From the NCBI GenBank assembly GCA_022825665.1, contig JAJDWI010000041.1, positions 1 to 64,000 on the forward strand: a stretch of DNA of 64,000 nucleotides, read 5' to 3'. The position numbers and the translations under genes are program-made. The notes beneath the pieces were generated by a model. That model saw only the letters and a program-made list of their open reading frames with translations, made no database searches and was not told where the DNA came from. This stretch comes from Candidatus Poribacteria bacterium. Its GTDB lineage: Bacteria > Poribacteria > WGA-4E > WGA-3G. Positions within the stretch are counted from its first letter, which is position 1. Each line of letters begins with the position of its first letter. Below are positions 147 to 2,215 of the stretch, one piece after another.

Positions 147-1358
147 TCAGAACCAAAATCGTGACATTAAAATAATCTGATTAGATCCTTCAAGTTGTCT
201 TAACGTCCCTTTATTGAGAATTTCTTCATCAGGTTTTCTATCAGCATTTGGTAGGTTTGCCCAATAGAACAAAGAAATTGCCCCGTTTTCAATAAAGTTG
301 TATTGTGCAATAAATGTTAACCGTTTGCCAGCATCACCTAATACTGTTCTGTCTGGATCGAACAAACCGTAACGTCCGGCTATAGAGAGTTGGGGTAGCA
401 CCCGATACTTTGCCCCGACATAGTATCCTTTTGAATTGATATCATCAGTTGAAAAAGAACTAACTTCTCCGGTATTGCCAAAGTTGAATTCACCTTCTAA
501 ACTTAATCCAGAATAAGAAGCAGTAATAAATGCTCCAACAAGACGTTCCCACTCTTCGTCAGGTTTATCATAGATACAGGAGACACCTGCACGTATTGGA
601 CCGAGTTGTCCTCCAACAGTTCCAAGTACACCGTTGGCTGTTGCGTTATCTGCGTTAAAATATGCAGCGTTGTAAAACACTTTTCCCAAACTACCACCGA
701 GTTCAATACCGACATCGCGTGTGTTAGAACCGAGTTCGTACCCCTGGCGAACAAGGATGTTGTGATCTTTCTGTTTGATTCCAAACGGCAAACGAAATTG
801 TCCTACTTTAGCATAAAGATGTTTTGGAACAGCATCAACAGTCGCAAATGCAGTTATTGTGTTTCTGACAAAGTTATTGGAAAGGGTTAAACGCACGCGA
901 TCTGTTGCTTGAGCGTTGAATGTCACTTCAGCTTGCATAAGGAGAAAACTGTCAACTGATGAATGACATGAAGCACAAGATGCCCCCGTATTTTCTTCTG
1001 TATCTACGTGCATTGGCTTTATAAATGCTGTTTGGAGATCAAGCGAAGTCGTAAGCTGCTTAACTACCTCTTTAGATTCCTCTGTAACTGCGTCCATATC
1101 AAAATCTTCGGGAAACTCAAAATAGTTCTCTTCAAAGATTTCTCCAATTCGGTTTCTTGGACCTCCACCTGCGGGGTCAATGTGGCAAAAATTACAATCT
1201 TTATCTAATTCTGTCGCAAATTCTGGACGTGCTTCTGCGACATTAGTCCAATTGCCACTGATTGTAAAGGTGACAAACAACAATGCAATTATGCTATAAC
1301 GCATCAGATTTTTCATCATGTGAATACATTTGATATAACGATTTTTGTATTTCTTCAA
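147..1358 (-). CDS. Diheme cytochrome c-outer-membrane porin fusion
   Basis: The protein is exported: a signal peptide (hydrophobic stretch SIIALLFVTFTI, cleavage near AEA) precedes a small cytochrome domain with two heme-attachment motifs, CNFCH and CASCH, about 73 residues apart. The rest, about 260 residues, has the alternating pattern of a transmembrane beta-barrel and ends in RFWF, the aromatic C-terminus typical of outer-membrane proteins. Known comparisons are Cyc2-type and related porin-cytochromes, which move electrons across the outer membrane; this role is inferred. Start choice: the reading frame opens at an ATG at 1379, but a perfect AGGAGG (1365-1370) lies 6 bases before an in-frame TTG at 1358, so TTG is preferred; ATGs at 1319/1316 are also possible. 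The next gene upstream on the same strand orientation is intergenic repeat; the neighbour at 1637-2215 is also a heme-type protein. Confidence 0.7.
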   Translation of the reverse strand: MKKYKNRYIKCIHMMKNLMRYSIIALLFVTFTISGNWTNVAEARPEFATELDKDCNFCHIDPAGGGPRNRIGEIFEENYFEFPEDFDMDAVTEESKEVVKQLTTSLDLQTAFIKPMHVDTEENTGASCASCHSSVDSFLLMQAEVTFNAQATDRVRLTLSNNFVRNTITAFATVDAVPKHLYAKVGQFRLPFGIKQKDHNILVRQGYELGSNTRDVGIELGGSLGKVFYNAAYFNADNATANGVLGTVGGQLGPIRAGVSCIYDKPDEEWERLVGAFITASYSGLSLEGEFNFGNTGEVSSFSTDDINSKGYYVGAKYRVLPQLSIAGRYGLFDPDRTVLGDAGKRLTFIAQYNFIENGAISLFYWANLPNADRKPDEEILNKGTLRQLEGSNQIILMSRFWF

Positions 1359-1380
1359 AAGCACCCTCCTATATATCATT

Positions 1381-1636: not shown

Positions 1637-2215
1637 TCATTCAAGTTCTGTGAAAACATAGTCTATGTCTTCGACTCTGGCATGACATCCCCAACAAATT
1701 CTACCGGATGCAATTACTGCAAATTCTTTATCTGGATCGTTTCGTGTATATTCAATGAATTCCCAATCATTATGGTCCGGATCACTACCAGCTTTTTTTC
1801 GCATTATAGCGATTAATCCGATATAATCCTTATTGGGTCGGGTTGCTTCTTTTACAACGATACTACCATCAGGATATGGAAACACTTGTTCACCGTCCGG
1901 TGCTATGTCATCCTGTGTTTGGTTGACATAGACATTCTTATCACCATTATGTGGATCTCCACCTGGAACTGGTGGAATTGGTTCGGCATTTAGCTTTAGC
2001 CAACTTTCATATCCTGCCACATCATCAGGAAGTCCTGGTAGTGCGACAGCAGGTTCTTCCGTTTCTTGTTCAGGTTGAGCCGGTTCTGTTTGCTGAACAA
2101 TATCGTCCAACTGTTTTTCTTCTACACATGCCGTGAACATCATTAACGGTAATAGCATTACTGCGGTCCAGGCAATTACATTCGTTTTGATTTGTATATG
2201 TCTTTTACTTTTCAT
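1637..2215 (-). CDS. Cytochrome P460-like lipoprotein
   Basis: The 192-residue precursor begins with a lipoprotein signal (hydrophobic stretch, then MMFTAC with the acylated Cys at 30), a Pro/Glu-rich linker (35-60) and a domain with the cytochrome P460 pattern: Y-x-x-W, NGDKNVYVNQ, FPYPDGSIVVKEA, DWEFIEY, and CWGCH at 174-178 followed by DYVF. P460 proteins bind a c-type heme cross-linked to lysine and act on hydroxylamine or related small nitrogen compounds; many homologues have no known substrate. An AGGAGG-type ribosome site precedes the ATG. The gene runs in the same direction as the cytochrome-porin 260 bases downstream, which suggests a shared periplasmic-to-outer-membrane redox role (inferred). 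Confidence 0.75.
   Translation of the reverse strand: MKSKRHIQIKTNVIAWTAVMLLPLMMFTACVEEKQLDDIVQQTEPAQPEQETEEPAVALPGLPDDVAGYESWLKLNAEPIPPVPGGDPHNGDKNVYVNQTQDDIAPDGEQVFPYPDGSIVVKEATRPNKDYIGLIAIMRKKAGSDPDHNDWEFIEYTRNDPDKEFAVIASGRICWGCHARVEDIDYVFTELE

Follow-up and report, generated by a model that had tools for sequence, protein, structure and literature searches.

Poribacteria encode a predicted outer-membrane protein that may serve as a very small conduit for electrons. The window analysed here, a stretch of 64,000 nucleotides of poribacterial DNA, carries on its minus strand (147..1358) a TTG-initiated gene for a diheme porin-cytochrome fusion of 403 aa, as judged from its translation and its relatives. 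Computation establishes the gene, its conservation, its predicted 16-strand topology and its linkage to a gene for a P460-family cytochrome. We propose, with a probability only slightly above one half (roughly 0.55), that the two-heme barrel would act as a minimal trans-outer-membrane electron conduit joined to a periplasmic P460-family cytochrome. This reading is based on the invariance of both CxxCH motifs, the porin topology, the P460 linkage, the series of genes found in one genus and the presence of cytochrome assembly and oxidase genes.

The sequence features described in the initial annotation are all present. The product contains the heme motifs CNFCH and CASCH and ends in RFWF, and a Shine-Dalgarno-like AGGAGG (1365..1370, minus strand) lies 6 nt ahead of the TTG start codon (1358-1356). 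The proposed TTG start is credible because the Shine-Dalgarno-like sequence and the start position are kept in relatives: both this sequence and TTG occur at the same place in L002, L004-L008, L092, L093 and L097, and ATG replaces TTG at the same position in L003, L010 and L083. On the same grounds, initiation at ATG 1379, an in-frame codon upstream of the TTG, or at 1319 is less likely. A predicted signal peptide with a long n-region (1230..1358, minus strand) was read by eye, with cleavage between AEA and RPEF, and residues are numbered here in the mature protein from the R of RPEF. When the mature sequence was shuffled 20,000 times, one CxxCH appeared in 0.06% of the shuffles and two never did. 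In the gap that separates the P460 gene from the barrel gene, immediately before the Shine-Dalgarno sequence, a 22-bp A+T-rich unit is repeated in 2.6 tandem copies (1371-1427) and is possibly a regulator site.

The C-terminal barrel had been set beforehand as a test of the annotation, and it passes: AlphaFold2, run on a 64-row alignment, folds mature residues 59-360 (150..1055, minus strand), up to the terminal RFWF, into a 16-stranded beta-barrel with a mean pLDDT of 66. Like all models discussed here, it represents the polypeptide alone, without heme. The modelled strands have one hydrophobic and one polar face, and a Foldseek search with the model retrieves solved porins, the best match being OmpM1 of Veillonella (E 4.4e-12), with OmpF and OprP also found. 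Profile matches to porin families that lack heme are weak: Porin_4 (PF13609) scores 18.3 bits, below its gathering cut-off of 27, and Porin_O_P (PF07396) matches few members, at best with an E of 0.0014, which is likewise below the curated cut-off. In porins the long connections between strands are extracellular loops, the short ones are periplasmic turns, and both termini are periplasmic. The connections in the model follow this pattern, with 22, 4, 24, 8, 6, 10, 9 and 24 residues in the odd positions and 4, 3, 2, 2, 2, 2 and 2 in the even ones; loop L1 would thus lie outside the cell and both termini in the periplasm.

The two heme motifs occupy different parts of this structure. Motif 1 (CNFCH, C12-H16; 1182..1196, minus strand) is located in the N-terminal segment that precedes strand 1 (residues 59-72), on the predicted periplasmic side, and motif 2 (CASCH, C85-H89; 963..977, minus strand) follows strand 1 and precedes strand 2 (95-107), within the predicted extracellular loop L1 (residues 73-94, 22 residues; 948..1013, minus strand). 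The model suggests one heme motif per predicted membrane face, with heme 1 periplasmic and heme 2 on extracellular loop L1. The gene had been described as a diheme N-terminus fused to a barrel; the two conserved motifs and the barrel bear this out, but the second motif comes after strand 1, in L1, and not in the N-terminal segment. A motif on each predicted face agrees with the further proposal that the layout would suit electron transfer across the outer membrane. An arrangement with both hemes in one N-terminal domain was considered and rejected, since the modelled strand 1 comes between the two motifs, and a one-heme relative has its own well-supported strand 1 at the aligned position. This relative, L088, was modelled separately, also with 16 strands; its strand 1 reaches a pLDDT of about 72-79, its L1 comprises 10 residues without a CxxCH between well-supported strands, and its model matches porins including OprP and OprO in Foldseek. 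In another one-heme protein (L178:6006-7193, genome G009) the loop-1 region, DAESDAHFDNNNDGNGHDHDHDHETPH, is rich in Asp and His where the two-heme form has heme 2, and from its composition looks metal-binding.

In the two-heme model the pLDDT falls below 50 at residues 1-45 and 79-92, the stretches that hold both heme motifs. This low confidence leaves room for both hemes inside the pore, and hence for a porin that takes up solutes, with hemes that have a structural or channel-gating part and pass no electrons across the membrane. The porin fold, the weak Porin_4 and Porin_O_P matches and a predicted L3-type loop all speak for such a protein, yet a plain porin would not be expected to keep both CxxCH motifs invariant or to be linked to cytochrome genes, and we consider this explanation quite unlikely.

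The gene is close to universal among Poribacteria. Matches were found in 75 of 85 poribacterial genomes, almost always as a single copy, and in 53 of the 56 with a completeness of 90% or more; every relative that the genome collection yielded is titled Poribacteria. Searches of plasmids by tblastn with the two-heme and one-heme forms as queries gave no match, a PDB sequence search with the protein and its profile returned no real relative, and nothing came close to a cut-off in NCBIfam. Two CxxCH motifs are present in 61 of 66 distinct near-full-length relatives and a single one in the other five. The 59 aligned two-heme rows keep C12, C15, H16, C85, C88 and H89 without exception, and of 91 ORFs, counted without de-duplication, 87 have the two motifs spaced 73 residues apart. 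Conservation of the second CxxCH, on which the annotation had hinged, therefore extends to every aligned two-heme sequence, and only five distant relatives keep the first motif and lack the second.

The five one-heme proteins are L088-L091 of family f7 and L087 of family f4, and L178, a further f7 protein, also has one motif. C12, C15, H16 and the pair D155-H156 are invariant in two-heme and one-heme forms alike. Heme 2 may have been either gained or lost, since the branch leading to the one-heme clade is long and the tree is uncertainly rooted. L087 (6023-7069, genome G024) is fast-evolving and groups weakly with the two-heme proteins of f4, possibly reflecting a secondary loss of heme 2. In L086:769-2030 (genome G012) a two-heme gene is seemingly split over two frames, because of an error in the assembly or because the gene itself is broken.

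Besides H16 and H89, H156 is the only invariant histidine in the two-heme set; the pair D155-H156, like M98, remains invariant in the one-heme proteins. Alignment and model place H156 in loop L3 (residues 147-170; 720..791, minus strand). In classical porins L3 constricts the pore, and by virtue of this position H156 is probably the distal ligand of heme 1. Two further residues, H137 (56/59) and M355 (58/59), are near-invariant among the two-heme proteins but not in the one-heme forms. The 59-row alignment offers no clear invariant distal ligand for heme 2, save perhaps M98, which faces outward by hydropathy.

A search of the relatives for matching gene pairs, as the initial annotation had advised, identifies a recurrent neighbour. 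Directly upstream of the barrel gene in the window lies a gene for a P460-family c-type cytochrome (1637..2215, minus strand) with a lipoprotein-like N-terminus and one C-terminal CxxCH (CWGCH); its PF16694 score of 48.4 bits (E 1.5e-12) against a cut-off of 27, together with this motif, places it in the P460 family. A P460 gene is found on the same strand just upstream of the barrel gene in 43 of the 49 loci with enough flank, and the pairing is shared by f1 and f3, two families in which the barrel locus otherwise has different flanks. Studied members of the P460 family bind NO or oxidise hydroxylamine. At the outer membrane, the hemes of the fusion could hence take part in gas or redox chemistry instead of exchanging electrons with an outside substrate; together with a P460 or cytochrome c'-beta-like partner, the protein would bind or detoxify NO, hydroxylamine or peroxide, or sense redox conditions. 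The conserved pairing favours this idea, as do the solved structures closest to the partner, which are cytochrome c and P460 chains (9htv, 6hih, 7ead, 6hiu); however, periplasmic detoxification does not call for a barrel with heme motifs on both predicted faces, and f4, f6 and f8 have the barrel gene but no P460, so that we regard the idea as unlikely, if still to be reckoned with.

A third component appears in genus g9 of family f3, in which the P460 gene and the barrel gene are followed, after a gap of about 40 nt, by a gene for a membrane protein (L092:9017-10108) with N-terminal hydrophobic segments, a weak match to DUF6529 and two c-heme motifs; the three genes apparently form an operon. 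Close homologues of this membrane diheme protein are encoded in 69 of the 85 genomes, and the gene is unlinked in f1 (e.g. G000:C71:27990-29042). The f4 and f8 genomes that have a two-heme gene contain no close homologue of either the P460 or the membrane diheme protein. The arrangement in g9 recalls, in its layout, Cytbc, a protein with a b561-type membrane domain and a diheme c part that He et al. describe next to an mto operon (PMC5566968). In f1 the barrel gene is followed by a bacterial alpha-2-macroglobulin gene (L031:2872-7377, G000:C163:612-5105), which was set aside as a functional partner because it is not kept in f3. In the assembly of the window this gene is on another contig, and the left edge of the window is thus a contig break inside a conserved neighbourhood.

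The genome of the window encodes cytochrome c assembly proteins, which, with the conserved CxxCH and the predicted export of the two-heme protein, marks that protein as a putative c-type cytochrome, and it encodes one heme-copper oxidase. A second P460-family gene is present in the same genome (G000:C93:48398-48748, L134), no match to Cytochrome_C7 was found there, and another genome (G078) has 12 P460-family matches.

From these data we infer heme loading at both sites and an electron path for the proposed conduit. On the periplasmic side, the N-terminal segment would plug the 16-stranded barrel or reach into it and hold heme 1, for which His156 of L3 is the probable second ligand; heme 2 would be borne by loop L1 outside the cell. 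The path would link in series an extracellular donor or acceptor, heme 2, heme 1 and the periplasmic P460-family cytochrome of the neighbouring gene, and in many genomes it would extend from this cytochrome to the inner membrane through the membrane protein with two c-type heme motifs. Inward flow, in which the protein would oxidise an extracellular donor as Cyc2 does and so supply the heme-copper oxidase, seems by analogy slightly more likely than outward flow. Several points count against a conduit: with a pLDDT below 50 around both motifs the distance between the hemes could exceed the tunnelling range, heme 2 has no clear invariant distal ligand, f4 and f8 lack close homologues of P460 and the membrane diheme protein, the gene for the latter is unlinked in f1, and no substrate is indicated.

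If a conduit does span the outer membrane across this whole uncultured, sponge-associated phylum, it would point to an exchange of electrons with the surroundings that was not known for Poribacteria before. The near-universal gene raises a specific physiological question about sponge symbionts that is testable in a heterologous host. The literature searched, which lay mostly outside subscription papers, yielded no report of electron exchange or extracellular electron transfer in Poribacteria, nor of a porin loop that carries a heme. That the protein is the smallest known self-contained trans-outer-membrane electron conduit, with a heme per side and a core respiratory function throughout the phylum, is a more ambitious claim that we put forward tentatively, as a possibility with the odds somewhat against it.

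Among known systems, MtrAB, MtoAB and PioAB share with the proposed conduit the principle of crossing the outer membrane by way of hemes and a barrel. They rely on a separate decaheme protein and a 26-stranded barrel, whereas the poribacterial protein is a single chain, and the MtrB/PioB family (PF11854) is absent from the genome of the window. Cyc572 of Leptospirillum (PMC10654088) is likewise a cytochrome-porin fusion with a predicted 16-stranded barrel; compared by its description only, it differs in that a second heme in loop 1 is not described. Closer to hand, the one-heme relatives of f7 (L088-L091, L178) have a homologous barrel and heme 1 segment and the invariant D-H in the loop equivalent to L3, but their loop 1 is without a heme motif.

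The closest parallel is Cyc2, which is defined by AXPXFAR[Q/K][T/Y], CXXCH, PXL, one heme and a 16-stranded OprP-like porin (Keffer et al. 2021, PMC8406198). Both proteins have a signal peptide, a short N-terminal CxxCH segment at the periplasmic mouth, an OprP/OprO-related 16-stranded porin and a similar length; with 403 aa and 16 strands C-terminal to the cytochrome segment, the poribacterial protein falls within the Cyc2 porin definition (at least 365 aa). This order of parts, OprP and OprO among the fold matches and a partial AxPxFA, shared 12 residues before the first Cys by 65 of 66 members, would fit a true Cyc2 iron oxidase to which a second heme has been added. Such an origin is nonetheless highly improbable, and the Cyc2-type membership of the initial annotation is not supported by the motifs: neither the full AXPXFAR[Q/K][T/Y] upstream of CXXCH, of which only AxPxF[A/S] is shared, nor PXL downstream of it occurs in any of the 66 relatives, and 61 of them have two heme motifs instead of one. 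The single periplasmic-side heme of Cyc2 poses a puzzle, in that soluble Fe2+ would be forced into the pore (Keffer et al., PMC8406198). A second heme on an extracellular loop, if true, would lift this limit and show how little a conduit needs. With a heme c motif and a modelled outer-membrane barrel in one chain, the poribacterial protein has a Cyc2-like layout, yet it stands outside Cyc2 by its published motifs and is a variant of the porin-cytochrome fusion with its second heme motif in loop 1.
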